Part shown: positions 3,983-34,820 of the stretch, piece by piece | How positions within the stretch are numbered: the first letter of the stretch is position 1 | How the letters are laid out: each line of letters starts with the position of its first letter | From: Armatimonadota bacterium | GTDB lineage: Bacteria; Armatimonadota; UBA5829 | DNA length: 37,429 bases | Assembly: GCA_012522555.1 (NCBI GenBank) | Contig: JAAYKG010000141.1 | Span: 1-37,429, forward strand | Direction of reading: 5' to 3' | Made by a program: the position numbers and the translations under genes | The notes under the pieces: generated by a model | Database searches by the model: none | Seen by the model: only the letters and a program-made list of their open reading frames with translations | What the model was told of the DNA's origin: nothing

Positions 3983-4010
3983 CTTAACCCTCCCCCGCCT
4001 TCGCGTCAAC

Positions 4011-4041
4011 AAAAAAAGCCCCGACATTTGTATGCCGAGGC
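4011..4041 (-). terminator. Rho-independent terminator of the TPR-protein operon
   Basis: On the minus strand a 10-bp stem (two G-T pairs), with arms 4041-4032 and 4027-4018 and loop ACAA, is followed directly by seven T residues (4017-4011). It lies 41 bases past the stop of the TPR gene. It also sits only 28 bases ahead of the next gene's start, so some read-through or attenuation is possible. Confidence 0.85.
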
Positions 4042-4081
4042 CGAAAATCAATAGTATTCTCTTGGGTTTGTCTCCTGGGCG

Positions 4082-8183: not shown

Positions 8184-9998
8184 TCACCACGCAAAACACG
8201 TCACATCCCACTCTGTTCGCACACGTAATAAACGAAATAATTGCGTCTCGGATCGATAAAACGAACTGATCCCGGTTGCAGACACAAACGAACCGACAGG
8301 AGGGACCCAGCCGACGTTTTCCATCGAGACGCGCAAACCCGGAGGCATCCCCAAGCTTGCATCAGGAACCTTATAATCATCAACACCCGAGCCATCGTTC
8401 AGATAGAAATAATCCGCACCCGCAAAGCTGACAACGCCTGCCGCTTTCACCAACAGCCCGTTGTTGCTAAGCCCCACAACATCAGACCACACCCGCGCCG
8501 AGATATCGTCCTCCTTTATCCACCTCCATGCGCCGGCTCCACTGCCTAGAGAGCGGGAACTGATAAAAAGAGGGGTGATCGGCGTGTTAGTCCTGCCGGT
8601 CACGGTCAGGGTTGCGGCGGTTAGAATCCGTTCCTGGTTTGCGGCGGTCTCCATTCGACCTACCGCATTTACTTCATCGCCGATGCTGACTGCCTCCGGC
8701 CAAGCTGTGCAAATCGCCGCCGAGCGATCTTGGGCTTCGATATAAATGGAATTCACCGATTCACTTTCGGGAAATACCCCGACGACGCACCCGGATATCG
8801 CTCCTATCCGGGTGTCCGCGAGCGCTTTCACCACAGATATGGGTTGTATGGGGTGCAAGTTGAAGTTGACAGTGACGGCTTTGTTTACTACGACCGTTTT
8901 ATCTGCAATGCCATGCGTCGCGAACCCCGGCGCACTCGCGCTGACGGTGTATGTTCCGACGGGGACTGTGAACGTATAATTTCCGCTCGGTTCAGCCTGC
9001 GTGGAATATCCACCCGGCGTTGCAGTTATTGTGGCGCCCCCAAGACCGGTTCCGTCGGCCTTTTTCACTCGCCCGAGTATGCGGCCGGTCTCCGGCTCCC
9101 AGGTGGTCTTCATATAATCTGCCACCGAAGTGCCTATGACTTCATAGTTTGACCAGGAAGTTTGGTCTCCCTGTTGGAATACGAATACCGCCACCACCTC
9201 GTTCGCGCAGCCGGCTCGATAGATTTTCATCTGGTCGATATATTGTTGCTCGCTGAGCTTGTTTCTATCCCGCCACCCCGTTCGGAAAAGACCATCCCCA
9301 CAGTATTTACACGGCCCCCAATCCACATCACTGCCGAATTCGCCGATAAACCACGGCTTGCCGCGCAGGTAGGAATTGTTCGCTATGGCGATGTCACGAT
9401 GTCGGAAACATCGATTCGGCAGGCAGCAGTTTACCTCAAAATCGAAGTATTCGTGGGTTTCGACGGCATCAGCCGCGTTGACTGCCGCCATCAGATCCGG
9501 GTCTTGCCAAGTCGCTGCGCTGATCCAATCGGGCGGAAACGAGCCGAACACTATTTGTCCCGCATATCCAAGCTGCCGCAGCCGATTTTTATAGTTGACA
9601 AACTCTGCGCAGGTTCTTTTGGCTTTCGTGGGATTAGACCAATCGAATTCGTTGCGATAGCTGACCGCATCCGGTTTTTTAGCCAGATTGGCTATTTTCG
9701 CCCACACCAGATCCGCATAGCTGGAGCCTGTTCGCTGGTCGGGAAGATAGCCATTCTCCCAATAAACGGTATCCGCGGTGAACGGCCGATAAAAGACTTT
9801 TGATCCAGTCGCCTGGGCGGGAGGGATGTCGTTTTCAAATATTACCTTGATCCAAGTCGCGCCCTGCGCCCAACGATCGATTTCGTTATTCCATCCGATT
9901 ACGTGTGGGCACATCGGCGGGTTGATGGCCAGGCATCTGCCCGTTGCGAGCAGGCACAATGCGATTGACACCACCGCCAAAACAAGTCTATTTTGCAT
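8184..9998 (-). CDS. Secreted multidomain putative glycoside hydrolase with carboxypeptidase-regulatory-like and OB-like domains
   Basis: The 604-residue protein starts with a signal peptide (VLAVVSIALCLLATGRCLA). Residues about 30-310 look like a clan-A type TIM barrel. A candidate acid/base Glu sits in YRNEFDW and a candidate nucleophile in KPWFIGEFGSD, with GSFPPDW and ETHEYFDF between. Next, residues about 315-395 form a carboxypeptidase-regulatory-like beta-sandwich (GRILGRVKKADGTGLGGATI, then GNYTFTVPVGTYTVSASAPG). The last 200 residues are an OB-like module (GLLVKAAGVVSFAGADYFYL, NDGSG, VGSFVSATGISS). That module is also present at the C-terminus of the TIGR03790 protein at 21795-23792. 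The glycosidase assignment is inferred from fold-level motifs only; the substrate is unknown. A TATACT -10-like box lies upstream but its -35 is poor. Confidence 0.65.
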   Translation of the reverse strand: MQNRLVLAVVSIALCLLATGRCLAINPPMCPHVIGWNNEIDRWAQGATWIKVIFENDIPPAQATGSKVFYRPFTADTVYWENGYLPDQRTGSSYADLVWAKIANLAKKPDAVSYRNEFDWSNPTKAKRTCAEFVNYKNRLRQLGYAGQIVFGSFPPDWISAATWQDPDLMAAVNAADAVETHEYFDFEVNCCLPNRCFRHRDIAIANNSYLRGKPWFIGEFGSDVDWGPCKYCGDGLFRTGWRDRNKLSEQQYIDQMKIYRAGCANEVVAVFVFQQGDQTSWSNYEVIGTSVADYMKTTWEPETGRILGRVKKADGTGLGGATITATPGGYSTQAEPSGNYTFTVPVGTYTVSASAPGFATHGIADKTVVVNKAVTVNFNLHPIQPISVVKALADTRIGAISGCVVGVFPESESVNSIYIEAQDRSAAICTAWPEAVSIGDEVNAVGRMETAANQERILTAATLTVTGRTNTPITPLFISSRSLGSGAGAWRWIKEDDISARVWSDVVGLSNNGLLVKAAGVVSFAGADYFYLNDGSGVDDYKVPDASLGMPPGLRVSMENVGWVPPVGSFVSATGISSFYRSETQLFRLLRVRTEWDVTCFAW

Positions 9999-10126
9999 AT
10001 TTTCACTCTCTTGAAATCACTGCCTGCAGTATACAACAAAAAAACGATTGTCGCAGGAATCCGAACGTATTCCGATTAACCTTTCAGGAACAATCGACAA
10101 TGCTCACTCGTAATGGATTTCAGGGC

Positions 10127-10155
10127 TTGCGCTAAAGCCTTTTGCCGCCGATAAT
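10127..10155 (+). promoter_or_regulatory. Possible promoter for the coiled-coil protein gene
   Basis: TTGCGC (10127-10132) and GATAAT (10150-10155) are 17 bp apart. The start point would be near 10162, just ahead of the GGAGG site at 10166-10170. Confidence 0.5.
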
Positions 10156-10181
10156 AGACCTGTCTGGAGGTGGTCTGTTCC

Positions 10182-10862
10182 GTGGAAGAAACCAATCTGC
10201 TTGATAAAATCGAAAAACTCAAAGAAAAACTGAATCGAACCACCCGCCGAATGACGGGGCTGAAAGAAAAAAGCAGACTGCTGGAGATGCAATACGAAGA
10301 TGCCAGAAGCCGTGAACAAAACTCCAACACAGTGGTAGGCGAACTCCTCGAACGCCAGCGCGAACTCAATGTTATGCTCAACAGGGCGAATATTATGCTC
10401 AACCGCACCCAGGAAGCTATGGCGCTAAGCTCGATGGAATTAAACGAAATGGCTAAAGCCCTTCCTGAGCCAAAAAAGGCTGAGTGGGCGGATCGAGTCT
10501 CGCGAGTTAATGAACTATTCAAACAGACCGGCATTCAGGACGCCGAACTCGGCGCGTTGGGCAGCGGATTATCGTCTACTGATTCATTTGGCGATTCCAA
10601 TATGAAAAAGCAGTCCGAAGAGGCCTTCGGCGCCAGGCGCTCCGTCTGGGATTCCCCTCAAAGACGAGAACCCCCAAGGGTGCAGGCCGAACTAGTCGAA
10701 GAAGAACCCCAGCCTACTGAGCCGATTCAATTGGTGGCGGACGAAAATGACCGGCAAGAGCAGCCCCCGGAGGATCATGTGGATTGTCGGATGGATGAGC
10801 AGCCCGGCGATGAAGATCCGGCTGAGCAGCGTCGCAGATCCTGGTGGCGAAGATTTGCTTGA
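10182..10862 (+). CDS. Cytoplasmic coiled-coil protein of unknown function
   Basis: The 226-residue protein has no signal peptide or membrane segment. Residues about 1-100 are a long charged helix with heptad character (EETNLLDKIEKLKEKLNR, then MTGLKEKSRLLEMQYEDARS and GELLERQRELNVMLNRAN), predicted to form a coiled coil. The second half is acidic, rich in Glu, Gln and Pro and probably disordered, and the protein ends in a basic-aromatic tail RRRSWWRRFA. I chose GTG 10182 because GGAGG lies eleven bases upstream; a GTG at 10170 overlaps that site. I do not recognise the family. The basic, Trp-rich end could bind membrane or nucleic acid, but that is only a guess. It is divergent from the putative glycosidase. 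Confidence 0.7.
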   Translation: MEETNLLDKIEKLKEKLNRTTRRMTGLKEKSRLLEMQYEDARSREQNSNTVVGELLERQRELNVMLNRANIMLNRTQEAMALSSMELNEMAKALPEPKKAEWADRVSRVNELFKQTGIQDAELGALGSGLSSTDSFGDSNMKKQSEEAFGARRSVWDSPQRREPPRVQAELVEEEPQPTEPIQLVADENDRQEQPPEDHVDCRMDEQPGDEDPAEQRRRSWWRRFA

Positions 10863-10973
10863 TCGACACCCCAGTGCCTGTCCCGGCCGGCGCGGATGAG
10901 GATTTTGCGACAGGCGGATTGGCTCGACTTCGGGCCTGGCCTTGTATCACAACGGCTCAAGACCACAGCCGGC

Positions 10974-11003
10974 TTGACGATAACATTGCACAACGCATAG
11001 AAT
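10974..11003 (+). promoter_or_regulatory. Sigma-70 type promoter for the secreted Ig-like protein
   Basis: TTGACG (10974-10979) and TAGAAT (10998-11003) with 18 bp spacing. The leader of about 80 bases contains the hairpin at 11037-11065. Confidence 0.6.
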
Positions 11004-11036
11004 AGGCTGGCGATGAGGTGTTGGGGGAGTGCATTG

Positions 11037-11065
11037 CGGGAAAAGGCGTAAAAAGGCTTTTCCCG
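11037..11065 (+). other. Stem-loop in the 5' leader of the secreted Ig-like protein gene
   Basis: Perfect 9-base arms CGGGAAAAG (11037-11045) and CTTTTCCCG (11057-11065) with an 11-base loop are followed by GTTTTG. It lies between the promoter and the start codon and could act as an attenuator or stability element. The short T-run makes true termination uncertain. Confidence 0.45.
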
Positions 11066-11090
11066 GTTTTGCGTGCGTGGGGTGAAAACA

Positions 11091-12899
11091 ATGACGAATT
11101 GGCGTTGTGTCTGGGCGAGCCTATCGGTCGTCTTGACGCTTTTATACGTGGCTGCTTCGGCGCAAGCCGATTTCAAACCGAGGGTTTCGTGTTCGGCGAC
11201 GGGCAACACCGGCTCGGTAGTTATAAATGGAGATGTCGCTGTCCGCTTTCAGGTTTCAAATGGCAGCCTGAGCGGCCTGGAACGCGCGAAAATAACCAGC
11301 GACCGACTCGCGGCGTTGGTTAACGCGAAGTTCAATCCCTCGACGATCCGCGTGCAGGGCGATAAAAGCTCGGCCAGGGTTTTGTCCGGCGATCAACTGA
11401 TATGTATTGCGACGGCAGGTGACGCCAAATCGGCGAAAAGTACTCCCCTCGATCTGGCTGGCAAATGGGCGTCGCAGATGCGCTCTCTGCTTCTTCTGCC
11501 GCCAATCGCCCTGTCCCCAGCGGAAGTTACTGTTCCTGTCGGTGAAAATCGTCAGGTCGAGGTTAAAGGAGCCGCTTCTGGGCCTGTCTCGGCACGCATC
11601 GACGATGAGGAACTTGCTTCTGTGCAGCCGGATGGCAGACGGTTGACGGTTTTGGGCAAGAAGCTCGGCAGAGCGCTTGTCGAGGTAGATATACAAGGAG
11701 AACGAGCCACCCTCGTAGTCAACGTAAAAAAATACGCCGGTGCGATTCCGGGATTGATTATAGGGCAGGTGACGGGAAACCCGTGTCCGGCTCAGCTTGT
11801 GTGTTACTCTGCCCGCCAGGCTACCGCACAAGCGGCCGCCCTTGAACCGGGGGCAAACATCGAGATCGGCGAGGTCGTTTGCCCGAAAGAACCGCTGAGT
11901 TCAGGCAAAGGCAGATATATCAAAGTCAATGCGCGCATAAGTGGATACGATTATATTCCTGTATCAACAACCGCTAATGTCGAAGTGCAAAACATCGTTC
12001 TGCCTCGGGAAGATGCCGTTCAGCTTTTCTATAGCAATGACCCTGAAAGCATTCGCAAATATCAGCCGCTATACGCAGCGCGGGTCGAACCCGACAAAGT
12101 GACGCGAATCCTATATCACCATCAAAGCGAAATGTCCCAGAGGGTGCATGTTATCGTCGAGTTGGCTAACCCCAACGATACCGCCGCCAAAGTCAGGATT
12201 TTCCGCGGCATATCTCCGCCATCTGTCGATACCATCTATGTCGGCCACGTAGCGGCCAATGCGTTTATGAGGGATTATGCCAACGATATCAGCGTTGTAG
12301 AGACGATTCCTCCGCAGTCGAGGCTCGTGCTGGTCTCCGATATGTTGTCAAAAAAACAAACCTCCAGCGGGATACTGCAAATTAAGCAGATAGCCGGGCA
12401 AAGCGCTTATGTGCGCATAACTGCGGCTGAGCCGGGAATCGACAATGTTGATAAGGGGTCTATGGCGAAGGCCTCTGACCCCCGCGTGCTGCAGTTGTCC
12501 GATCACGTATATCCATCCCCTATAAAGACGGTGGATGCGGAATATGAAGTTGGGTCGCGTTGGGCGTTTATCTCGATCGGCAAACACGCACTGACCGATT
12601 CCACCGCTCAAAAAACACTATACGGCAACTATGGCGTAACATATAACATCAACGTGCGTGTGCACAATCCCACTGGCGAATCCAAAAAGATCAACTTTGT
12701 GTTCGACCCCACCGCAGGCCCTTGTTCTGCGGTGTTCATAGTCAATGGCAAGTTCGCGCCGGTGAAATATGCCCAGCCGCCAAGCGAGATAACCCTGGAC
12801 AGTATAACGCTGAACCCTGGGGAAACTCGCATGTGTCGCGTTATCACGGTTCCGTTGGCCGGCTCAAACTATCCGGCAACCCTTATCGTCAGATCATAG
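11091..12899 (+). CDS. Secreted protein with a bacterial Ig-like domain, function unknown
   Basis: The 602-residue protein begins with a signal peptide (MTNWRCVWASLSVVLTLLYV, cleavage after ASAQA). Around residues 135-210 there is a Big_2-like Ig fold: LSPAEVTVPVGENRQVEVKG, then VQPDGRRLTVLGKKLGRALV and a final VNV strand. The remaining 390 residues are predicted beta-rich, with no catalytic motif I recognise. They include segments like VHVIVELANPNDTAAKVRIF and YNINVRVHNPTGESKKINFV that suggest further beta-sandwich domains. I chose ATG 11091; the frame opens 18 bases earlier at a GTG. It has its own promoter at 10974-11003 and is followed by a hairpin at 12938-12959. It may be a surface or periplasmic structural protein. 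Confidence 0.75.
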   Translation: MTNWRCVWASLSVVLTLLYVAASAQADFKPRVSCSATGNTGSVVINGDVAVRFQVSNGSLSGLERAKITSDRLAALVNAKFNPSTIRVQGDKSSARVLSGDQLICIATAGDAKSAKSTPLDLAGKWASQMRSLLLLPPIALSPAEVTVPVGENRQVEVKGAASGPVSARIDDEELASVQPDGRRLTVLGKKLGRALVEVDIQGERATLVVNVKKYAGAIPGLIIGQVTGNPCPAQLVCYSARQATAQAAALEPGANIEIGEVVCPKEPLSSGKGRYIKVNARISGYDYIPVSTTANVEVQNIVLPREDAVQLFYSNDPESIRKYQPLYAARVEPDKVTRILYHHQSEMSQRVHVIVELANPNDTAAKVRIFRGISPPSVDTIYVGHVAANAFMRDYANDISVVETIPPQSRLVLVSDMLSKKQTSSGILQIKQIAGQSAYVRITAAEPGIDNVDKGSMAKASDPRVLQLSDHVYPSPIKTVDAEYEVGSRWAFISIGKHALTDSTAQKTLYGNYGVTYNINVRVHNPTGESKKINFVFDPTAGPCSAVFIVNGKFAPVKYAQPPSEITLDSITLNPGETRMCRVITVPLAGSNYPATLIVRS

Positions 12900-12937
12900 G
12901 TATCAACAACCTGCGAAATATGGAAAATTAAGACAGA

Positions 12938-12959
12938 ACAGACCCCCGTCGGGGTCTGT
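12938..12959 (+). terminator. Terminator-like hairpin after the secreted Ig-like protein gene
   Basis: Perfect 9-bp stem ACAGACCCC / GGGGTCTGT with a CGTC tetraloop, 38 bases past the stop. The tail is GTTGTTGTG, not a clean T-run, so termination may be partial. The next gene starts about 50 bases later. Confidence 0.55.
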
Positions 12960-13008
12960 GTTGTTGTGCAGTAGTTGATGATATATCATTGTGCGCAGAG
13001 AGAGCTAA

Positions 13009-14649
13009 ATGTTTATACGGATTCTACAGGCAGGGATAGCGTTAATGTTCATCAATTCAGCTTCAGTTGCAGACGGTGTTGCGGGATCGCTCGCTCGGCA
13101 GGAGGGAGCACAGGCGCGGGTGATGTGGTTCGATGCGGAAGCCAACATGAAAACCCTCTCCTCTCAATCAGGCGTGCAGGATATGGTCGAGAAATGCAAA
13201 TCCGCCAATATAAACACGATTATAGTCGACGTGAAGCCATTAGCCGGCACGGTACTTTATAACAGCGAGATCGCTCCAAAAATCAATGCTGCCCGTTATC
13301 CGAAGGGCTACGATTTGCTGCAGACAATGATCGACGAATGCAAAAAAGCGCGAATACCCGTCTATGCGGCTATCAATGTCTTTTCTGAAGGGTCAAAAAA
13401 AGCGCCGGGCGGGCCTGCGTATAAGCATCTGGACTGGCAATGCATACAATACGAAGTCGAACGGGTGTTGAGCGTCGAAGGCGCGGAACCGATTCTCCTG
13501 ACACGCCCGAATACCTTGTTACGCAAAGGAGAAGTTTGTTTATACGGAATCAGTTCCGAACCCGCCGGCAAACTGCCTGAAAACACCTTCTACGTCCGAG
13601 TCTCTCACAAAGGGGCCTCATTGCAAAGCGGAACGGCCAGCGGAAAGGCCAAAATATCCGCGCCGGAGGATGGTTATCTGTTGATCGGATCAGGTAAAGC
13701 GGGTGATTGGCTGCGCGATGCGGTCTCTGCTGGCAAGCGCTTCCAGCTCGATACCAGGGATACGCTGGTCAGGGCAGGGGAGGCGGCCGACATGCACCAG
13801 GCCATTTTCGTAAACCCGCTGCACCCCGAGGTCAGAAGTTATGCTTTGAGCATCATCGAGGAGATATGCACTAAATATCAGGTGGACGGGATAGTCCTGG
13901 ACAGAATGCGATACCCCGGCCTCTACGCCGATTTCAGCGATCTTTCCAGGCAGGCATTCGAGAAGCAGCTTGGCCGGCCAGTGGAGAACTGGCCGCGCGA
14001 CATCATAGTGCGAACCCCGACGGGCTGCCAGGACCCCGAACGAGGCCCATTGTTCAAAGATTGGTTGAAGTTCCGCGCCCAAACGATGCGAGATTTCCTT
14101 GCTGAAGCGCGCTCGACGGTTAAGGCCGTCAAACCTGCGGCCCGTTTGGGAATATACGTGGGTTCGTGGTATCCATTGTATTACGATGTTGGTGTGAATT
14201 GGGGCAGCCCAACAAACGCTGCGGGATATGAGTGGTGGCCGGAGGGCTACGAAGCCACCGGTTATGCCGATCAGGTCGACTTTATGTGTACGGGGTGCTA
14301 TTATACCCATCCCACCCGCAAGGACGCTATCAGAGCCGGGGATCCGGAGTGGATGAGCGTGGAAGCTGCGGCCCAGGAATCAGTCAACGCGGTCAAAGAC
14401 GACACATTCGTATATGCAAGCCTATACCTCCTCCAGTATCAACGCAGGCCGCAGGCTTTCGCTAAGGCGATCGCGGAGTGCCTGTCCAACAGCCAGGGCT
14501 GCATGCTCTTCGATCTGGTCTATGCGCGCGACTACGATTGGTGGGATGTGCTCAAATCCTCATTCCCAACCTCCACCAAAGCGCCGCACGAAGTGCACGG
14601 ATTGCTCGAAAAAGTTCGATCCGCCAATAAACGTCAGGCAAGCAGATAA
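13009..14649 (+). CDS. Secreted GHL10-type (DUF187) glycoside hydrolase-like protein
   Basis: The 546-residue protein has an N-terminal export signal (MFIRILQAGIALMFINSASV). Its barrel resembles the glycosyl hydrolase-like 10 family (YngK/DUF187). Typical stretches are ARVMWFDAEA, MVEKCKSANINTIIVDVKPL, ARIPVYAAINVFSEG, YQVDGIVLDRMRYPG and a later KPAARLGIYVGSWYP. The Asp in IVLDRMRYPG sits where these families keep a catalytic or substrate-contacting acid. About 130 residues between the INVFSEG and VNPLHPEV strands form an inserted beta domain (residues about 150-260). Such enzymes are thought to act on cell-wall or exopolysaccharide substrates, but the substrate is not established here. The start has GAGAGAG close upstream. 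It may be co-transcribed with the preceding secreted protein. Confidence 0.75.
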   Translation: MFIRILQAGIALMFINSASVADGVAGSLARQEGAQARVMWFDAEANMKTLSSQSGVQDMVEKCKSANINTIIVDVKPLAGTVLYNSEIAPKINAARYPKGYDLLQTMIDECKKARIPVYAAINVFSEGSKKAPGGPAYKHLDWQCIQYEVERVLSVEGAEPILLTRPNTLLRKGEVCLYGISSEPAGKLPENTFYVRVSHKGASLQSGTASGKAKISAPEDGYLLIGSGKAGDWLRDAVSAGKRFQLDTRDTLVRAGEAADMHQAIFVNPLHPEVRSYALSIIEEICTKYQVDGIVLDRMRYPGLYADFSDLSRQAFEKQLGRPVENWPRDIIVRTPTGCQDPERGPLFKDWLKFRAQTMRDFLAEARSTVKAVKPAARLGIYVGSWYPLYYDVGVNWGSPTNAAGYEWWPEGYEATGYADQVDFMCTGCYYTHPTRKDAIRAGDPEWMSVEAAAQESVNAVKDDTFVYASLYLLQYQRRPQAFAKAIAECLSNSQGCMLFDLVYARDYDWWDVLKSSFPTSTKAPHEVHGLLEKVRSANKRQASR

Positions 14650-14830
14650 AATAACGCGCCGGCGATTCTGAATTTATGTCGCGTTAGGCAGATATAGCCG
14701 TTCGCCACCCTCAGAACCTCTCTTTTCTATAGTCTTTTCTCACCTTCAGACCCTAACTGGCATTTTGCACAGCCGGTGAGGGCACGCATCTTGAAGATAC
14801 TATACGTAGATGCCTGGAGGAAGGAAAAGT

Positions 14831-15133
14831 ATGAAGGTTCGAGTTAGCGGTGAGAGTATAGTCCTGGTCATGATCTGCCTTGCTGATATGCTTTCAACCC
14901 TCTTCTTCGTTCTGAGAGGATCCGCCGTCGAGCAAAACCCCATTATGGCGGCTTGCCTGGATAAAGGGCCGTGGGTGTTTGTGCTCGTGAAAATCGCCAG
15001 TTTTGTGCCATTTGTAGTTGCGGTCGAGCTATATCGGAAACGAAACGCCGCATTTGCTCGGCTGGCCTGTCGGAGCGCGATAATAATCTACGTTGTGACA
15101 TTCACTGTGTTGACCGTCGGTCTGAATGTATGA
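14831..15133 (+). CDS. DUF5658-like small integral membrane protein
   Basis: The 100-residue protein has three membrane segments: SIVLVMICLADMLSTLFFVL, WVFVLVKIASFVPFVVAVEL and AIIIYVVTFTVLTVGL. It carries the layout of DUF5658 proteins: an Asp inside the first helix (LADMLSTL), a VEQNPIM motif after it, and a Lys inside the second helix (VLVKIASF). The function of the family is unknown. The start ATG 14831 has an excellent GGAGGAAGG ribosome site. It converges with the HTH gene on the opposite strand, and a long hairpin at 15204-15238 lies between them. I find no clear promoter in the 180 bases upstream. Confidence 0.75.
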   Translation: MKVRVSGESIVLVMICLADMLSTLFFVLRGSAVEQNPIMAACLDKGPWVFVLVKIASFVPFVVAVELYRKRNAAFARLACRSAIIIYVVTFTVLTVGLNV

Positions 15134-15203
15134 CGCGCCGTTTTATGTAACTTTTAATTCATCCAATTAATTGCTTGTTGTCTCTCTTCTCCACGTCGCT
15201 CTT

Positions 15204-15238
15204 GATCGGCCGACCGGCTTGTAACCGGTCGGTCGATC
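15204..15238. terminator. 14-bp stem-loop between convergent genes
   Basis: Arms 15204-15217 and 15225-15238 pair over all 14 positions with one G-T pair; the loop is CTTGTAA. It lies 70 bases past the DUF5658 gene and 15 bases past the HTH gene stop on the other strand. No T-run follows on either strand, so it is a block or RNA-stability hairpin rather than a textbook terminator. Confidence 0.5.
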
Positions 15239-15253
15239 GCATACCAAGGCATT

Positions 15254-15769
15254 CTATGGATTATGCCGATTCGGCCAACGCGACACCCGGTTCACCTCGC
15301 TCAGATATACCTCATACCAACCGGCATACGGCCCTTGCAGATAGGCTGCGCGGATGTGTCGTTTTGCAATTCTCAGCCGCTGCTTTACCACTCTCCTCTT
15401 GATACCCAGCATCTCGGAGATGCGCTTGCCGGTAAATCCCGCAATCCACAAGCGCCATATTATCTTCTCGATCTCGTTCAAGTCGGCCGCATCAATCAAT
15501 TCGTCTATCTGCCGATCAAAGGCAAGTTCGATCGTCGGCTCATAGAGATCATCCTCATGCAGGGACTCGAGTCTTTTGCGCTCGTCTCGAATCTTGCGGT
15601 TGAGTCGCGTATTGGTATAGATGCCGCTTTGTGCGCCGAATTTAACGCAGGTCTCCAGCAACTGGTCGGCACGCGATTCGATTTCTTCTTCTGTCAGGTC
15701 GCTGTTGGCGCTTGGGTCTGCTTGCGGAGTCAAAATCGGATTGGTGGACTGCAGGAGCGGGACGATCAT
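15254..15769 (-). CDS. Sigma-70 region-4-like HTH DNA-binding protein
   Basis: The 171-residue protein has a C-terminal helix-turn-helix of the sigma region 4 / LuxR type: EIEKIIWRLWIAGFTGKRIS, then EMLGIKRRVVKQRLRIAKRH. A helical, acidic N-terminal region (TEEEIESRADQLLETC) precedes it. No sigma region 2 is visible, so it is not a complete sigma factor; it is more likely a stand-alone regulator. ATG 15769 is chosen because GAGG lies eight bases upstream. Its promoter at 15815-15843 carries a small palindrome over the -10 box, so autoregulation is possible. Neighbours give no clear hint of the regulon. Confidence 0.7.
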   Translation of the reverse strand: MIVPLLQSTNPILTPQADPSANSDLTEEEIESRADQLLETCVKFGAQSGIYTNTRLNRKIRDERKRLESLHEDDLYEPTIELAFDRQIDELIDAADLNEIEKIIWRLWIAGFTGKRISEMLGIKRRVVKQRLRIAKRHIRAAYLQGPYAGWYEVYLSEVNRVSRWPNRHNP

Positions 15770-15814
15770 TGTCTTCACCTCTGTGTGGTTTTTTTGCTGC
15801 TATAACTAGACGTT

Positions 15815-15843
15815 AGTCTACTATGTTCACAGCCAGTAGTCAA
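15815..15843 (-). promoter_or_regulatory. Sigma-70 type promoter for the HTH gene, with an overlapping palindrome
   Basis: Minus-strand TTGACT (15843-15838) and TAGACT (15820-15815) are 17 bp apart. The palindrome TAGAC-N4-GTCTA (15807-15820) covers the -10 box and could be an operator. Confidence 0.65.
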
Positions 15844-15870
15844 CAATTTCACGCAAGTTTTTTAGAGGCA

Positions 15871-15907
15871 ATAAAACAGCGGGAACGCTGAGCTGCGATC
15901 CCGCTGT
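15871..15907 (-). terminator. Rho-independent terminator of the DUF2961/GH172 gene
   Basis: On the minus strand a perfect 9-bp stem ACAGCGGGA / TCCCGCTGT, with a 14-base loop, is followed by TTTATT. It begins 16 bases past the stop codon. Confidence 0.8.
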
Positions 15908-15923
15908 AAATCTGAATGAGAGG

Positions 15924-16997
15924 TTAAATGATTTCCAGATAATCCTTATCCGGCAATTCGGGGAACGGCGCGGTCGGCAGGGTTTGATACCAATACGCAC
16001 ATGAGGCGATGTCATCTTGCAGCGGCAAATAGCGGCCACCGGACCTCCAGCCCAGCGCCTGCATCGTCACCCTCAGGTCGCTTTCAAATCGCACCGGATC
16101 CATTATATGCCACCGATACAGGCCGAATCGCTCCTGTGCTTGCAGCGCCCCATCCGGACGGATCACCTGCGGCATCCCCGCATATGGGGTGGTGAACTCC
16201 GTATATTTGCCCTCCTCAAGGAAACAATACGATCCGCAGAAATAGTCCTCAGTGCCGGTCCCGCAGATAGTAGGGAATTGTGTGTCTCCATCCATGAAAA
16301 ACTTGATTTCCCCTTCTCCCCACCAACCGTTGTTGTTTATCCCCCAGCACATATACACCCCCACATACTGCCCCTGCCCTTGGACACCATCGAGAATGGT
16401 GTAGTCCTTTTTATACGGCAGCGGGTTCTCGCGTCTGAACTGTGCGTGGAAGTAGGCGCAATCCGCTGGGACATCGGTGAGAGTGTAGTTGATCTGGTAG
16501 TATAAGACCATGTTTTCGTCGGAGATATTGGTCATTGTGATTCGGCAATGCTTACGGAAGGGCATCTCCCAATAACAATTGAGGCCGCTAAGCGGATTGA
16601 CGCATACTGCAAGCGAGGAAACCTGCGCATATTTCTGCCATCCACAGGCGAAAAAATCCCCTATCGGGCACTCAACCGAGGGTTGTTCCTGATGATCCCA
16701 ATAGATGCGCAGAATTTGATGGCGCCAGTGCCCGGTGGGAGTCATCCAAATCTGTTGAATAGCGCCGGGGCCATCAATGTTGGCGATCTCCCGGCATTCT
16801 CCGGCTGCTATCACTATAGCCGGCGATACCTTCCAGCCTTGTCCGAGTTCGCGAGCGGCGCCGGTGCTTATACCCTCCGCGGCCATCCCGCCTTCCCCTT
16901 TGCCCCCGCCAAAGTTTTCGGCGCTGATCGATCGACTTTTTGCCGACGACACCCGGCAAAGATTGCCCATATTCATACCAAGCCCGTTGAAAGCCAT
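15924..16997 (-). CDS. DUF2961 / GH172 family protein
   Basis: The 357-residue protein belongs to the DUF2961 family, now glycoside hydrolase family 172, whose characterised members act on fructofuranosyl or arabinofuranosyl linkages. Recognisable features are SISAENFGGGKGEGG near the N-terminus, GPGAIQQIWMT, LRIYWDHQEQPSVECPIGDF, WGEGEIKFFMDGD and the signature CGTGTEDYFCGSYCF. No signal peptide is visible, so it seems cytoplasmic. ATG 16997 has GGAGG seven bases upstream; the frame is open 19 codons earlier. A likely promoter (17026-17054) and a strong terminator (15871-15907) show it is a single-gene unit. The substrate cannot be told from sequence. Confidence 0.85.
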   Translation of the reverse strand: MAFNGLGMNMGNLCRVSSAKSRSISAENFGGGKGEGGMAAEGISTGAARELGQGWKVSPAIVIAAGECREIANIDGPGAIQQIWMTPTGHWRHQILRIYWDHQEQPSVECPIGDFFACGWQKYAQVSSLAVCVNPLSGLNCYWEMPFRKHCRITMTNISDENMVLYYQINYTLTDVPADCAYFHAQFRRENPLPYKKDYTILDGVQGQGQYVGVYMCWGINNNGWWGEGEIKFFMDGDTQFPTICGTGTEDYFCGSYCFLEEGKYTEFTTPYAGMPQVIRPDGALQAQERFGLYRWHIMDPVRFESDLRVTMQALGWRSGGRYLPLQDDIASCAYWYQTLPTAPFPELPDKDYLEII

Positions 16998-17025
16998 GCT
17001 GTTGCCTCCGATGGATAGTTGAGGA

Positions 17026-17054
17026 AGTGTATCACACAACCAGCCATACCGCAA
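17026..17054 (-). promoter_or_regulatory. Possible promoter for the DUF2961/GH172 gene
   Basis: Minus-strand TTGCGG (17054-17049) and TACACT (17031-17026), 17 bp apart. The -35 is weak (three of six bases). Confidence 0.5.
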
Positions 17055-17088
17055 TTAATATGCCGCGTGTGCGAGGGCAATCGCCTGG

Positions 17089-17182
17089 CCCCTCCCGTTG
17101 GAGAATGCGTTCCCCTAATCCCCTCCCGTTGGAGAATGCGTTCCCTTAATCCCCTCTCCTGGGGGAGAGGGTTAGGGTGAGG
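17089..17182. repeat. Two tandem 31-bp repeats plus a third partial, inverted-repeat-bearing copy
   Basis: Units 17089-17119 and 17120-17150 differ at one base. Each starts CCCCTCCCGTTGGAG and ends CCCTAAT or CCTTAAT. A third copy starts at 17151 (CCCCTCTCCTGGGGGAGAGG) and diverges into a hairpin-forming segment followed by GTTAGGGTGAGGG. This resembles widespread intergenic repeats of the CCCTCTCC...GGAGAGGG type. It lies between the PRC-barrel gene and the promoter of the GH172 gene. Confidence 0.7.
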
Positions 17183-17274
17183 GCGAAGAAAGAAAACAGG
17201 CTATGTAATAATGAAAGGCCGCCGTATCGACACTGCCAATTCTATTTGTGCCTTGCCCGATGTTGTAATGGCCG

Positions 17275-17301
17275 AAAACAAAGGGGCGACAGCGCCGCCC
17301 C
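17275..17301 (-). terminator. Rho-independent terminator of the PRC-barrel gene
   Basis: Minus-strand stem GGGGCG / CGCCCC with a 7-base loop, followed by TTTGTTTT. It begins 13 bases past the stop. Confidence 0.7.
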
Positions 17302-17313
17302 CGGCCGCAATAA

Positions 17314-17703
17314 TCATCCGGACTGCGCCCTCGCCAAATTCAGCCAATACTCCACAAACGGCATCACATCGACCACGTTTTCTGTGAAGTCGGGGCTGTC
17401 GAGAACATCCGACTCCAAGGCAGGCACAACAACGAGAGCATGGGATATGTCCAGATACATCCCCTCCACGGGAACAAGCGACACCTTGTGCGATTCTTCA
17501 TCCTTGATCGCAACGAATACGATTTGCCCACTGCCTGCGTCGGCAAGCATGTCGGAAACAGTCCCGAATATGACCCCTTCCATATCCGCTACTTGCCAAC
17601 CCATTGCATCCGGCTGTCCATCCGCCAACTGATATGTTACACAGCTTAACCTGACCAGGCCGATCTGCGCATCTTCTTGTTCAAAATCCGGGTAGTACTG
17701 CAT
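17314..17703 (-). CDS. PRC-barrel domain protein
   Basis: The 129-residue protein carries one PRC-barrel-like beta fold at residues about 20-100. It opens with MGWQVADMEGVIFGTVSDML, continues with QIVFVAIKDEESHKVSLVPV and ends with the ISHALVVVPALES strand. PRC-barrels occur in RimM and in photosynthetic reaction-centre subunit H, and stand-alone versions often bind proteins or RNA. No signal peptide or partner domain is present. The start has GAGGTA five bases upstream. It is divergent from the PAS sensor gene and has its own terminator. Confidence 0.8.
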   Translation of the reverse strand: MQYYPDFEQEDAQIGLVRLSCVTYQLADGQPDAMGWQVADMEGVIFGTVSDMLADAGSGQIVFVAIKDEESHKVSLVPVEGMYLDISHALVVVPALESDVLDSPDFTENVVDVMPFVEYWLNLARAQSG

Positions 17704-17879
17704 TTAAGTACCTCGCCGTTACCTGGCCAACGCCAATGCGCCGGTTCGGTGTTTTTGATATGTAGCTCGATTGCCGCATCGTAATATGTCACGGCAATCA
17801 TGTACGGGTTACCCGCACCCTCATTGGCTCACACGTACCAAGGCCGACAAAAGCATGTGTGAAAATTTATTTGATGAGA

Positions 17880-17908
17880 TTGATATGTTTCGACTTGGGG
17901 TATAAAAT
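17880..17908 (+). promoter_or_regulatory. Sigma-70 type promoter for the multi-PAS sensor
   Basis: TTGATA (17880-17885) and TAAAAT (17903-17908), 17 bp apart. The start codon follows about 50 bases after the expected start point. Confidence 0.65.
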
Positions 17909-17967
17909 CAGGCAGGAAGCAAGCAGAGAAATGTGCAATTAATTGAGGATATCGTCCACACAATATA

Positions 17968-20900
17968 ATGGCACAGTCCGACAAAAACCCAATATTCGAA
18001 GACAAAATCGAGCATGTCCCCGATTGGATTTGGGAGATCAATCAGGAGGGCATCGTTACATATTCTAACAATATAGTATCCGACACGCTCGGCTATAACG
18101 TGCAGGAAATAATCGGGCGACCCTTACTTGACTTTGTGCCCGGGGAAGATAAAAACCGCTGCATAGAATTGATGCGAAGCGCACTCGATGAAGGACGTGC
18201 CCTCAGAAATATACACACCCATTTTTATACAAAAAACAAAGACACAAAAACTCTGGCGGTAAGTTGTGTTCCGATATCGGGCAATGGTAAACCCGCCGGC
18301 TTGCGTGGAGTCGCCAGAGATATCACCGATCACCTCGATAGACTGCATCTCGCCGAGCAAGTGCTGGAGCATTCCCAGACGGGAGTGTTTGTCTTGCTCG
18401 ACAACATCCTGGTTTATGTCAATCAGGGTCTCTGCGAGCTGATGGGGTACACTGAAAGCGAGGTGCTCGGCACGCCGATCTGGAAATATGTCCACCCTGA
18501 CGATATAGCCTGGCTGCTAGATCATCAGAACCGTCGATTGGCGGGGGAGGACGTATCTACCGAGTTTGTGGCCAGGGGGATTACAAAAAGTGGTGAGGTT
18601 CGATACTACGAACTGCGCATTTCGCCTCTAATCTACAAGGGGAAGTTCGCGCTGCTGGTCAACGCTGCCGACACCACTGATGAGGTGTTGGCCCGCGAGT
18701 CGCTTGCCGAAAGCGAACGTAACTTTCGTGACCTTGTCGAGAAAACCAGCGACTGGGTCTGGCAGATCAACGCCAATTTTATTTATACCTATGCTAGCCC
18801 GCGAGCCAAAGAAATGTTTGGTTATGACCCGCAGGAGATGATCGGCAAATCCATATTCGATCTAATGCCGCCGGATGGCGTCGAGCACATCCGCGAGATC
18901 TTTGAACAATCGAGGCGGGACAAAAAACCCGTCGTGATGCTGGAAACCGGAATGCTGCACCGTGATGGACACGTTCTGACTATCGAAACGAGCGCCGAGC
19001 CGATCTTTTCCAACGGCGATTTTTTAGGCTATCGGGGAATAGACCGCGACATCACCACCCGCAAACAAATCGAAGAACAACTGCGCAAAGCATTTTCGGA
19101 ACGCGAGAGTATTTTGCACGCATTTCCGGACGTCTATTTCTGGCTGGATACGGACGGCAAGATACTCGAGTGTCACGCAGCCGACGAAGCTGAGCTTTAC
19201 CAGCCGCCTGGACAGTTCTTGAATAAGAGGATGCAAGACGTATTGCCGGAGGATGTGGGCAGGCAATTTGCCGAAGCCATAGCCGAATTAAAGCACACCC
19301 AGTCAATAGTCTCACTCGAATACACGTTGAAAATCGAGGACACGGAGAAACACTTCGAAGCAAGGATGATGCTGATTTCGACTGGCACGATCATCGTCAT
19401 CGTAAGAAATATCACCGAGCGATACATCGCAAATGTCTCTCTTACAGAGTCTAGAAAAATGCTCGAATTGGTGCTCGAAAATATCCCGCAATACGTGTTT
19501 TGGAAGGACACCAATCTTGTCTACCTGGGATGTAATGACAACTTTGCCGAAGCAGCGGGGGTAGGATCGCCCGAGCACATAGTGGGCAAAACGGACTATG
19601 ATCTGGCCTGGGAAAAAAACGAAGCCGAATCATACCGCAAGTGGGATCGTCAGGTGATCGATGAAGATAAACCCGTTCTCAACATCATTGAAAGCCAGCG
19701 TCGACCGGATGGCCATATATCGTGGGTCGATACCAATAAAATACCTCTGCACAGCGCCGAAGGAGAAGTAATCGGTGTGCTCGGCACTTATGAGGACATT
19801 ACCGAGCGCAGAAAAGCCGAGCAAGCGCTTCACGAAGCCGAATCCAAATATCGAAGCCTGGTCGAAGAGACGATGGTTGGGGTCTATATGATCCAGGATG
19901 ATCACCTCGTATACGTCAATCCTCGTTTTCTCGAAATATTCGGAGCGAAGCAGGTCGATATGCTGGGCCAGCCTCCGCTCAAGTTCGTAGCCCCACAAGA
20001 CAGGGTCATGGTGGCCGAAAATCTGCGAAAACGATTCTCAGGAGAAACAAAAACAATGCGTTATGCGTTCAAAGCACAACGCATCGACGAAACCCCCATC
20101 GACGTCGAGGTGCATACGGCGGTTATGGACTACCAAGGCAGGCCGGCGGTTATCGGCTCGCTGTGGGATATAACAGAACGCAAACGATACACCGAGGCGC
20201 TGCAGGACAATGAAGAGAGATATCGACGGCTCTTCGAGCACAGCCCGGATATGGTTTTCGTGCTGTCCGCCGACACCGGGACGTTTATATCTATGAACCC
20301 TGCCGTGACACAAACTCTGGGATATGCGCCTTATGACGTACTGGGCAAAACTCCGGGCGATATAAGTCCGGAATACCAACCTGACGGCAAATCATCAAGC
20401 GAGGAGGCTATCAGGCTTATCAAAGCTCAACCCGGCGCGCCGGCGCAGAGGCTGGAATGGGTACACAAGAAAAAGGACGGCGCATTGGTCGATTGCGAGA
20501 TCAGCCTTGTAGCTTATAAACAGCATGGCGAGGTTCTCATACAGGCGATAGCCCGAGATATTACGGAACGTAAACAAGCCGAAGAAAGCCGACGAAAACT
20601 CGAACAGGAACTCGACAGGCAAAAGAGAGTCTTCTATCGCGAAACCATCCTCAGCGTAACCGGCGGCAAGCTCAATATATGCGATAATGTTGATGTCGAG
20701 CCATACATAATTCGTTCATCTGATATGTTCGAAGTTGAGGAGACATCGCACGTCGGTGCCGCGCGTCGTCAAACTGCGTCGAAATTGGCTGAGTATGGAT
20801 TGACAGAAGATAGATTGGATGGTTTTTTGGTCGGCATCGGGGAGGCGTTGACTAACGCAATTAAACACGGCAAACACGGCACAGTGCATGTTGGGCACGA

Positions 20901-21165
20901 TGATGACACCGTGTGGGTGGTTGTTTCCGACAAAGGCTCCGGAATTGAGTCACTCATCTTACCACGCGCCGTGCTGTTCAGGGGGTTCTCGACGAAGCCG
21001 TCGTTGGGTCTGGGTTATTCGATAATGCTCGAAGTCAGCGACCGCATCCTTCTCAGCACAGGCCCGCAGGGCACGAGCGTCGTGCTTATAAAGGAAAAGG
21101 TGGCTAATGAGTTGGCTCTTGCGACCGATTTTCTGCCGGACACGTGGGATAACATACCGGGCTGA
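17968..21165 (+). CDS. Seven-PAS sensor protein with C-terminal RsbW/SpoIIAB-like ATPase domain
   Basis: The 1065-residue protein has no membrane segment. Seven consecutive PAS/PAC modules are recognisable at about 11-120, 128-240, 250-367, 371-485, 493-614, 622-740 and 747-870; most end in a D-I-T-E/T-R-like PAC motif (RDITDH, RDITTRK, RNITERY, EDITERRK, WDITERK, RDITERK). After a short coiled coil comes an HATPase_c_2 domain (about 922-1045). It has an N-box GEALTNAIKHG (Glu959, Asn963), a G1 box SDKGSGI and a G2 box GLGYSIM. There is no HisKA dimerisation helix and no phospho-acceptor His. The catalytic part therefore resembles anti-sigma serine kinases rather than ordinary histidine kinases. 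Input could be redox, ligand or light; no heme or flavin site can be assigned. The start lacks a clear ribosome site. Confidence 0.88.
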   Translation: MAQSDKNPIFEDKIEHVPDWIWEINQEGIVTYSNNIVSDTLGYNVQEIIGRPLLDFVPGEDKNRCIELMRSALDEGRALRNIHTHFYTKNKDTKTLAVSCVPISGNGKPAGLRGVARDITDHLDRLHLAEQVLEHSQTGVFVLLDNILVYVNQGLCELMGYTESEVLGTPIWKYVHPDDIAWLLDHQNRRLAGEDVSTEFVARGITKSGEVRYYELRISPLIYKGKFALLVNAADTTDEVLARESLAESERNFRDLVEKTSDWVWQINANFIYTYASPRAKEMFGYDPQEMIGKSIFDLMPPDGVEHIREIFEQSRRDKKPVVMLETGMLHRDGHVLTIETSAEPIFSNGDFLGYRGIDRDITTRKQIEEQLRKAFSERESILHAFPDVYFWLDTDGKILECHAADEAELYQPPGQFLNKRMQDVLPEDVGRQFAEAIAELKHTQSIVSLEYTLKIEDTEKHFEARMMLISTGTIIVIVRNITERYIANVSLTESRKMLELVLENIPQYVFWKDTNLVYLGCNDNFAEAAGVGSPEHIVGKTDYDLAWEKNEAESYRKWDRQVIDEDKPVLNIIESQRRPDGHISWVDTNKIPLHSAEGEVIGVLGTYEDITERRKAEQALHEAESKYRSLVEETMVGVYMIQDDHLVYVNPRFLEIFGAKQVDMLGQPPLKFVAPQDRVMVAENLRKRFSGETKTMRYAFKAQRIDETPIDVEVHTAVMDYQGRPAVIGSLWDITERKRYTEALQDNEERYRRLFEHSPDMVFVLSADTGTFISMNPAVTQTLGYAPYDVLGKTPGDISPEYQPDGKSSSEEAIRLIKAQPGAPAQRLEWVHKKKDGALVDCEISLVAYKQHGEVLIQAIARDITERKQAEESRRKLEQELDRQKRVFYRETILSVTGGKLNICDNVDVEPYIIRSSDMFEVEETSHVGAARRQTASKLAEYGLTEDRLDGFLVGIGEALTNAIKHGKHGTVHVGHDDDTVWVVVSDKGSGIESLILPRAVLFRGFSTKPSLGLGYSIMLEVSDRILLSTGPQGTSVVLIKEKVANELALATDFLPDTWDNIPG

Positions 21166-21168
21166 TTA

Positions 21169-21197
21169 TTGACCTGGTTGTGCCGCATTGTTATACT
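21169..21197 (+). promoter_or_regulatory. Sigma-70 type promoter giving a near-leaderless transcript
   Basis: TTGACC (21169-21174) and TATACT (21192-21197), 17 bp apart. The expected start point, about seven bases past the -10, falls at 21204-21206, on or next to the ATG at 21206. Confidence 0.65.
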
Positions 21198-21205
21198 CAA
21201 GCTAC

Positions 21206-21664
21206 ATGAAACCTCATAAAAACGATGCAAACTTTCCACAAAAGCCCCCCAACGACGCTCGTCGGGGCGTGGCTTCGCCATCGACAAGTCTAGCGACGAT
21301 TATTGTCGCAGTAATATGCGGGGCGGTGGCGGGGTGGGCTGTAGGATTGCTCGGCTGGTCGGTGTTGTTTATTTCAGCGGGATATGGTGTTTTGTGCGGT
21401 GAGATGATACTACGGGCGTCAGATCGACGATGCTCTATTGGGTGCAATATATCGGTCGTTATCGCTATGCTGGTCGGCGCCATCGGCGGCAGGCTCGTAG
21501 TGGCCGCTTTGGTGATGCGCTCTTTAGGGGTTAAACCACCACTTGGGGCGTTGGATGTGATCGCCGATTTGGTCAGCCCCTCCCCGATTCCTCTGACCGC
21601 TCTCCTGCTTACTTTTGCGTTTTCCGCAGCTTGGATCCGGTATTCCACCAGGCGCACCCATTGA
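21206..21664 (+). CDS. Small integral membrane protein of unknown function
   Basis: The 152-residue protein has a polar N-terminus of about 30 residues. It then has roughly four membrane segments: LATIIVAVICGAVAGWAVGL, LFISAGYGVLCGEMIL, SVVIAMLVGAIGGRLVVAAL and TALLLTFAFSAAWI. I do not recognise the family. I chose ATG 21206. A TTG at 21188 in the same frame would sit within the promoter. No Shine-Dalgarno is present, in keeping with a leaderless message. The stop codon overlaps the -35 box of the next promoter. Confidence 0.6.
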   Translation: MKPHKNDANFPQKPPNDARRGVASPSTSLATIIVAVICGAVAGWAVGLLGWSVLFISAGYGVLCGEMILRASDRRCSIGCNISVVIAMLVGAIGGRLVVAALVMRSLGVKPPLGALDVIADLVSPSPIPLTALLLTFAFSAAWIRYSTRRTH

Positions 21665-21689
21665 CAAATATTGTCAGTGAGGATATAAC
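21661..21689 (+). promoter_or_regulatory. Strong promoter for the TIGR03790 gene, with palindromic operator candidate
   Basis: TTGACA (21661-21666) and TATAAC (21684-21689), 17 bp apart. The inverted repeat TGACAA-ATA-TTGTCA (21662-21676) overlaps the -35 box and could bind a dimeric repressor. Confidence 0.7.
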
Positions 21690-21794
21690 TCAGTGCAAGC
21701 TGGCGTGCATTTTGGTTCGACGTCTTGTCCGCCGGGTGTTCCACATTATAGCGGTTCTTCATGAAGCCGGATACGAATACTGGGGGGCGCAGAA

Positions 21795-23792
21795 GTGTTT
21801 CGGCCTGCTTTCCGTCTCACTGGGTTGTGGAAGATTGTTATCTCATCGGTTGTGCTATTGTCGCCTGTCACGTGCGTCTATGGCGGCGGCTCGGCACGTA
21901 ATGTGCTGGTTGTCGAGAACATCCATAGCCCTGCCTCCATAGAAATCGCTGACTACTATGCCGCCGCCCGAGGCATCCCATACAGCAATCGCTGCCGAAT
22001 CAGGTGCTCGACCAGCGAAACCGTGAGCCGCGTCGAATATGAAACCAATGTCCTTGCGCCGATCAGACGAAGCCTTCAAAACCCTGCCATCTCAGATAAA
22101 ATCGACTATATCGTGCTTACGAAAGGCACTCCACTGCGGGTGGAATATGGTTTGTCGACCGGCCCGCTGTCCGTAACCAGCATGCTGACCTGTATCGGTG
22201 AACTGGATATTACATCTTGTTTTGAAAATCCGTACGGCCCGTTATACTGGAACCCGAACCCTACGGCTTTTTCTCATCAGACCAATTTCTATGGCAGACA
22301 CCTCTATCTGGTCACCAGGCTCGACGGCTACACCACTAGCGATGTTCTGGCGATGATAGATCGCGGCCTCGACGCGTCTTCCCCGAGCGGTCCGGTGATG
22401 TTGGATCAGAAATACTTGGGCGCTAATCCGGCAGGCTCGAGTCTCGCGTTGAATCAACGAATTGGCGATGCCAACAATTGGCTTATGCAAAACGGAATCC
22501 CAACAATATTCGATGATACGTCGAGGTTTCTGTCCGACGGTGAAAATCTGATGGGTTATTTCAGTTGGGGCAGCAATGACCCGTCTTATTCAAGAGCCGC
22601 ATATACGAGCAATATGTTCGCCCCTGGGTCGATTGCAGACTCCTACGTTTCCAGCAGCGGGCGCACTTTTTTTGACAACCCAAACGGGCAATCTCTTGTG
22701 GCTGATCTTATCGCGCAGGGCGCTTGCGGGGTATGCGGCCACGTATCCGAGCCATATATGGCCTACGTGACCTATCCGGATATACTGTTTAAGATGTATA
22801 TGCAGGGGTTTACTTTGGCCGAGAGTTTCTACGCCGCCTGCCCGATGCTGTTCTGGAAATCAGTTGTAGTGGGAGACCCGCTGATGGCTGCATATGCAAC
22901 AACCCCGAAAGTCAGCATTGTGGTTCCGGACGAACCTTTGACCGGGCTTGCACAACTCCAAGCCACGGCCGTCGACCCGAAAGGCATCGCTAAGGTCGAG
23001 TTTTATATGAACGGCGCTCCCGTGGGTGTGAGTTATAGCATTCCCTACAGTGTCCCGCTGGATACGACGCAATATTATGTCGGGACTCATGCAATAGAGG
23101 CCAGGGCAGTGCAGGCCGGGCCGGTGGAGTCTGAAAGTTGGGCATCTGCCAGAGTGCAGATAGCAAACCCGGTATCCGCGCTTCGCGTGATAGCGGATGC
23201 GTTCGGATGTGACGACGGGCAGGGTGTGTGGTGCGCCGATAAAGTTGTGATGGCGGGTACGGCCGATTTGGGTTCAAATGAATTTTATGTGCAGGAATTC
23301 AACGGGGCCAGCGGCATCAGAGTGATATGGGATGGAGCGGTGGATGCGGGTGACATTGTGAGCATCTACGGGTCTTTGATCACAGATGAGGGCGAAAGAA
23401 GTATTCTGGCTGAGTCGGTAATAATCGAGAATTCAGTGTTGACACTTCCCGCCCCGAGGGCAATGTCCAACAAAACCGTCGGCGGTGGCGACGCCACCCG
23501 GCACACCCCTGGTATCACAGGGGGGATCGGGCTGCGCAACCAGGGCTTGCTGATAAAAACCTGGGGCTGCGTCACTTATGTCGGAGCGGACCACGAGGAC
23601 TTCTTTTATATTGACGATGGAAGCCGTTTGGATGATGGCAACAGTCACGTCGGCTTGAGAGTAAAATCCAGAAATCTGATCAAACCGGCTGTCGGCAGCT
23701 TCGTCATCGTGACCGGTATCAGCAGCTGCCAGTTGGTGGGCGACAAAATCATACGAACAATCAAGCCCAGGCAGCAGGACGATATAAGATAG
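21795..23792 (+). CDS. Secreted TIGR03790-family protein with Ig-like and OB-like C-terminal domains
   Basis: The 665-residue protein has a signal peptide (LWKIVISSVVLLSPVTCVYG). Residues about 33-370 match the TIGR03790 family of unknown function: ARNVLVVENIHSPASIEIAD, YYAAARGIPYSNRC, VLTKGTPLRVEY, the segment GACGVCGHVSEPYMAYVTYP and a closing VVGDPLMAAYA. The family looks like a Rossmann/caspase-like fold, but a protease role is only a guess. Residues about 375-455 are a Big-type Ig domain (KVEFYMNGAPVGVSYSIPYS). The last 200 residues are the OB-like module shared with the putative glycosidase at 8184-9998. The GTG start 21795 has GGGGGG seven bases upstream. The protein is likely exported to the envelope or outside. 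Confidence 0.85.
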   Translation: MFRPAFRLTGLWKIVISSVVLLSPVTCVYGGGSARNVLVVENIHSPASIEIADYYAAARGIPYSNRCRIRCSTSETVSRVEYETNVLAPIRRSLQNPAISDKIDYIVLTKGTPLRVEYGLSTGPLSVTSMLTCIGELDITSCFENPYGPLYWNPNPTAFSHQTNFYGRHLYLVTRLDGYTTSDVLAMIDRGLDASSPSGPVMLDQKYLGANPAGSSLALNQRIGDANNWLMQNGIPTIFDDTSRFLSDGENLMGYFSWGSNDPSYSRAAYTSNMFAPGSIADSYVSSSGRTFFDNPNGQSLVADLIAQGACGVCGHVSEPYMAYVTYPDILFKMYMQGFTLAESFYAACPMLFWKSVVVGDPLMAAYATTPKVSIVVPDEPLTGLAQLQATAVDPKGIAKVEFYMNGAPVGVSYSIPYSVPLDTTQYYVGTHAIEARAVQAGPVESESWASARVQIANPVSALRVIADAFGCDDGQGVWCADKVVMAGTADLGSNEFYVQEFNGASGIRVIWDGAVDAGDIVSIYGSLITDEGERSILAESVIIENSVLTLPAPRAMSNKTVGGGDATRHTPGITGGIGLRNQGLLIKTWGCVTYVGADHEDFFYIDDGSRLDDGNSHVGLRVKSRNLIKPAVGSFVIVTGISSCQLVGDKIIRTIKPRQQDDIR

Positions 23793-34533: not shown

Positions 34534-34820
34534 GTTAGGATAGCCCTTAGACGCTGATCCGGTAGACCACGCAGGATTACCAGGTATAAGGCCATAATTA
34601 GTCCGTATGTAGTGAGATACAAATCTGCTCAACAGATTACTCTGTTGCTTTGTGGCTGCTCAACCGATAATGGTATCGCTTACTGACGATCTCGACCGGC
34701 TGACGTCGCTGGCAGGCAGCCGCTGGAACTTTGCACCGGCGCAGGTTCGTCAGTCAATATGGCTGTGGTTGGAGCCGAGTTGATATGGTTGAACCGACCC
34801 GACATGGAGGCAATTATAGT
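34534..34820. other. Gene-free region between carB and the Big_1 protein gene
   Basis: No supported gene in these 287 bases. The only structure I see is a short hairpin, CAACAG / CTGTTG (34630-34647), without a T-run. A promoter for the next gene should lie here, but I cannot point to a good one. Confidence 0.5.

Follow-up and report, generated by a model that had tools for sequence, protein, structure and literature searches.

Two window proteins with a common C-terminus

The window, i.e. the whole stretch of DNA that was analyzed (37,429 nucleotides of a contig from an Armatimonadota bacterium), contains two genes on opposite strands whose products end in the same type of module, which is roughly 205 residues long. 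The features concerned are as follows.

8184–9998, minus strand: secreted protein of 604 residues, with signal peptide, N-terminal region, CarboxypepD_reg domain and tandem OB module
8187–8855, minus strand: tandem OB module of the 604-residue protein (BLASTP, left-out profile, AlphaFold)
21795–23792, plus strand: TIGR03790 family protein of 665 residues, with Big_7 Ig spacer (residues 371–436) and tandem OB module
23163–23789, plus strand: tandem OB module of the TIGR03790 protein (BLASTP, left-out profile, AlphaFold)
23454–23552, plus strand: module residues 98–130, the most conserved stretch, forming the connector into the first strand of barrel 2

The coordinates of the two genes had been given correctly in a preliminary description of this DNA, which also assigned the plus-strand gene to TIGR03790; this label was borne out by a score of 182 bits against a cut-off of 67. 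The minus-strand gene had been called a putative glycosidase, but this was not confirmed. A CarboxypepD_reg spacer (residues 307–381) was the sole domain recognized in the domain search, and the N-terminal region of the protein matched no recognized family there.

Five motifs that had been reported as common to the two C-termini were all located in both proteins. For the 604-residue protein and the TIGR03790 protein, respectively, these are GLSNNGLLVK and GLRNQGLLIK, GVVSFAGAD and GCVTYVGAD, YFYLNDGS and FFYIDDGS, GLRV and GLRV, and VGSFVSATGISS and VGSFVIVTGISS. BLASTP aligned residues 416–599 of one protein with residues 495–664 of the other, a span of about 185 residues (31% identity, 70 bits, E = 1e-16). 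A profile built from 40 other module copies, with both window sequences excluded, matched the TIGR03790 module with 237 bits (E = 6e-73) and the module of the 604-residue protein with 136 bits (E = 7e-42) when searched against the window ORFs; no further copy was detected by this profile among the remaining ORFs of the window. The similarity of the two modules is real, and chance is excluded.

Several other window genes are of the exoproteome type and carry no module, namely those at 2363–4051 (minus strand, GHL6/GH42-trimerisation), 13009–14649 (plus strand, GHL10-DUF4985) and 34731–36848 (plus strand, repeated Invasin_D3/Big_1 protein). The gene at 17968–21165 (plus strand) encodes 1,065 residues with repeated PAS domains and a C-terminal anti-sigma-type HATPase domain; no HisKA was recognized in it.

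Fold and conserved connector

AlphaFold models of the two modules were calculated from alignments of natural relatives, and gave a mean pLDDT of 93.8 and a pTM of 0.90 for the TIGR03790 module, and of 85.6 and 0.83 for that of the 604-residue protein. Both models consist of two five-strand OB units with identical strand order. In the TIGR03790 module, the predicted strands span residues 21–31, 40–44, 51–55, 64–75 and 78–91 (barrel 1), and 130–140, 147–151, 165–168, 180–192 and 195–201 (barrel 2). According to model and fold comparison, these units belong to the OB-fold superfamily, having the five-strand barrel with a long, shared strand 1. The best folds found by Foldseek in the PDB were OB proteins, including the tandem-OB HIN domains, Cdc13/Stn1, RPA14 and YgiW. 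Single barrels reached target-normalized TM scores of 0.5–0.7, but the whole module only 0.3–0.4, indicating that the relative arrangement of the barrels is unmatched by a known one.

The two halves of the module are themselves related (hhalign, 92%, E = 5e-7), and a profile of the first barrel also matched the second (E = 1.6e-4). Residues 98–130 contain eleven of the most conserved columns, with the pattern P98...GG107-108...G117...GL-NN-GLL123-130. The conservation of the connector columns was 0.91–1.00 among 56 sequences, and GG...GLNNIGLLV is the family signature. In the model of the TIGR03790 module, the connector before residue 130 has no long regular secondary structure, yet its pLDDT is mostly above 90. 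The common C-terminus is one homologous domain, made up of two related OB barrels and a conserved, structured connector.

No family in Pfam or NCBIfam spans the module, the best partial OB matches being 3.9e-5 (Pfam) and 0.0058 (NCBIfam). The partial Pfam matches were to tRNA_anti-codon in 10 of 42 members and to RMI2 in 12 of 42. Judging by title and abstract, the literature found to combine Armatimonadota with OB-fold, or Armatimonadetes with PEP-CTERM, concerns other subjects. The module is apparently an unnamed domain family of known OB fold.

Since most of the best-matching folds are those of DNA-binding OB proteins, the module might bind extracellular DNA and so fix enzymes to matrix DNA, as has been proposed for the OB region of ExeM and Xds. 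The nuclease activity of both ExeM (PMC6085458) and Xds (PMC6746945) needs the OB-containing region. Profile matches of the first barrel to the EEP nuclease chain 9sf8 (E = 1.9e-4) and, weakly, to the ExeM/NucH family NF033681 (best 0.0099) point in the same direction. However, the ligand cannot be predicted from matches to OB folds, and the modules are acidic on average (net charge -2.7, s.d. 4.9; 23% positive), which makes DNA less likely as the ligand. No nuclease fusion was recognized among the scanned hosts. An EEP domain was found neither in the window hosts nor in 19 further hosts of the same genome, and did not figure in the top 25 families for 57 module proteins of a complete relative (G019). 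DNA binding is consequently regarded as very unlikely.

Distribution of the module

The window's own genome contains 36 matches to the module at E ≤ 1e-3, of which 32 reach E ≤ 1e-12, and the complete relative G019 (one contig) has about 61 near-complete copies. The module was found in 24 of the 28 genomes of the class; it is absent from G005, G009 and G012, which belong to one genus, and from G024. Genomes in the remainder of the phylum have 0–3 matches each, mostly partial or weak. A scan of 84,980 species with a single conserved pattern from a 9-row alignment, which distant copies elsewhere could escape, gave 56 loci, all titled Armatimonadota, Armatimonadetes or merely 'bacterium'; the lineage had been correctly described beforehand as Armatimonadota-like. 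The module is a hallmark of one Armatimonadota class, in which it was multiplied onto tens of unrelated exported proteins.

In a family outside the class (f32; loci L184, L185 and L186), internal full modules occur in giant proteins of more than 2,000 residues, with dockerin-like calcium repeats at their ends. Two IMG/VR contigs also encode the module (L133:5974–6618, plus strand, and L134), which may represent either misbinned host DNA or real carriage.

Fusion partners and position of the module

In the window's own genome, the partners of the module are S8 subtilases, C25 and M6 peptidases, GH3, GHL10, an esterase, an amidase, an RCC1 propeller and TIGR03790, and several hosts have no recognized domains. 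TIGR03790 proteins occur both with and without the module. In G019, 98 Pfam families matched the 57 hosts, the commonest of them only four times. Where the N-terminal parts of two hosts were dissimilar (3,376 pairs), the modules were still similar in 90%. The preliminary description had proposed a tandem OB-like module on differing N-terminal functions, with profile search, structure prediction and a tabulation of fusion partners as checks; sequence, models and dozens of further fusions agree with this proposal.

Signal-peptide-like N-termini were detected by a crude rule in 40 of 60 hosts (67%) and in 21 of 105 neighbours (20%), i.e. about three times more commonly in hosts. The stop was seen for 181 non-redundant copies; 155 of these (86%) end no more than 30 residues before it, and 26 (14%) are internal or N-terminal, including one GH3 enzyme with the module directly behind the signal peptide. 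The longer tails inspected among these copies showed no transmembrane, sortase or PEP-CTERM anchor behind the module, and neither a PEP motif nor a basic end. Likewise, LPXTG, SLH or dockerin domains were absent from the window hosts and from 19 further hosts of the same genome. Half modules of about 155 residues, in which a signal peptide is followed directly by the connector and second barrel, exist as separate secreted proteins:

L240:2475–2942 (minus strand), L243:1499–1960 (minus strand) and L241:3253–3729 (plus strand): stand-alone half modules in G003, G007 and G011, adjoining other module genes
L067:8058–8486 (plus strand): stand-alone half module of the window's own genome, running off its contig

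The very wide, unselective range of partners and the strong divergence of the paralogous modules (about 30–40% identity) would fit a structural spacer, or a cap for folding or stability, which has no ligand of its own and was spread by domain shuffling and drift. The near-invariant connector residues and the terminal position point to something beyond a spacer, and the existence of half modules as separate secreted proteins also speaks against this explanation, which appears highly improbable.

Alternatively, the tail could be read by a dedicated secretion or attachment machine, in the manner of the type IX C-terminal domain, so that the cargo crosses the outer membrane and is fixed there. This would be in line with the position of the module as the last domain in most copies, with tens of unrelated cargos per genome in one class only, and with C25 and S8 peptidases among the cargos, C25 peptidases being typical type IX cargo in Bacteroidota. 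However, none of the 28 class genomes passed the cut-off for the translocon protein SprA (TIGR04189), and the module greatly exceeds the usual length of a sorting tail. The lack of SprA, together with the non-terminal copies, makes a strictly C-terminal export tag less likely, and an export signal of this kind is considered unlikely. One host (L063:4566–8621, plus strand), a gingipain-type C25 peptidase with propeptide and the OB module at its end, comes from a genome without recognized SprA.

Exosortase and loss of the exoproteome

The exosortase (PF09721), PEP-CTERM proteins and the module are all present in the same 24 of the 28 class genomes and missing from the same four. Exosortase and 4–38 PEP-CTERM proteins per genome are thus encoded in an Armatimonadota class, with examples at G000:C138:3317–4075 and G000:C85:13551–14342. 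A functional coupling of module and exosortase was rejected as unspecific, since the control domain PF13620 falls from 10–67 copies to a single one in these four. As a generic secreted domain drops too, the perfect co-occurrence is attributed to joint loss of the exoproteome. G005, G009, G012 and G024 have retained one copy of CarboxypepD_reg, but neither the module nor exosortase, PEP-CTERM or TIGR03790. Most of the exoproteome was apparently lost twice independently, at similar genome size.

Clustering of PEP-CTERM and module genes in G019 was likewise discarded as not robust (p = 0.003 at 3 kb, but 0.09–0.11 at 2, 5 and 10 kb). The PF07589 sites in this genome fall in ORFs other than the module ORFs. 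No study combining Armatimonadota with exosortase was found in the literature searched.

Proposed function

The anatomy of the module proteins, i.e. secreted, with the module mostly C-terminal, without another anchor and confined to one lineage, is consistent with the common targeting, binding or anchoring role that had been suggested for the two window proteins. The module is probably an attachment tail of this lineage, given that it occurs on some 30–60 exported proteins per genome and is almost absent elsewhere. There is about an even chance that it is a binding domain by which various secreted enzymes are retained at the surface or matrix of the cell that produces them. According to this proposal, an N-terminal signal peptide would export the host protein, and the catalytic domain would act outside the cell, often on stalks of Ig, CarboxypepD or fn3 spacers. 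The double-OB tail would bind one common ligand, a glycan or a protein, of the producer's envelope or extracellular matrix, and would thereby keep the enzymes at the cell. We infer from this anatomy that the module binds, that all copies share one ligand and that the module is located on the producer's own surface. The internal or N-terminal copies argue against retention, as does the fact that a domain can also spread as a stabilizer or spacer.

OB folds can bind oligosaccharides, and carbohydrate-binding modules (CBMs) typically occupy an accessory position at the C-terminus, behind Ig-type spacers. Together with the GH3 and GHL10 partners, this might suggest a CBM-like accessory module by which each enzyme would be directed to an insoluble polymer in the environment. 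The module is, however, also found on peptidases, amidases, propellers and TIGR03790 proteins, which have different substrates, and a CBM-like role is judged quite unlikely. The presence of the same tail on enzymes with different substrates would make a common ligand on the own surface or matrix likelier than substrate targeting.

Overlapping with retention at the own surface, the tail might, more tentatively and with a rather low probability, be the recognition tag of an undescribed display system, in which an envelope receptor or polymer sorts some 30–60 exported proteins per genome. Such a system would run alongside the exosortase/PEP-CTERM route of the same cells.

An unnamed, lineage-defining domain marks up to about 60 exported proteins, by a rough estimate 2% of all genes in a complete genome, and does so in a group that is known mainly from MAGs. 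A name for the domain would annotate hundreds of 'hypothetical' C-termini together and give a direct handle on exoenzyme retention in Armatimonadota. Identification of the ligand would reveal if a double-OB tail is able to act as a general surface tag.

Comparison with known systems

Like the Por secretion tail of type IX systems, the module is a C-terminal domain on many unrelated secreted proteins of one lineage. It differs in its fold, in its non-terminal copies and in a class without SprA above the cut-off; the T9SS tail has about 80 residues and folds as an Ig-like sandwich. PEP-CTERM/exosortase sorting is found in the same 24 genomes, but the PEP-CTERM signals are carried by other, shorter proteins.

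The OB domain of the ExeM/NucH/Xds nucleases (NF033681; 9sf8) resembles the module in being secreted and in the profile match of the first barrel, whereas the second barrel and the connector are unmatched. The ExeM/NucH OB region serves one nuclease, while the module comprises two barrels, is mostly C-terminal and occurs on dozens of non-nucleases. HIN-200, Cdc13/Stn1 and RPA likewise have OB barrels in tandem, and their single barrels superpose on those of the module (TM 0.5–0.7). These proteins are, however, intracellular and have another barrel arrangement, and the module is no member of their families by sequence.
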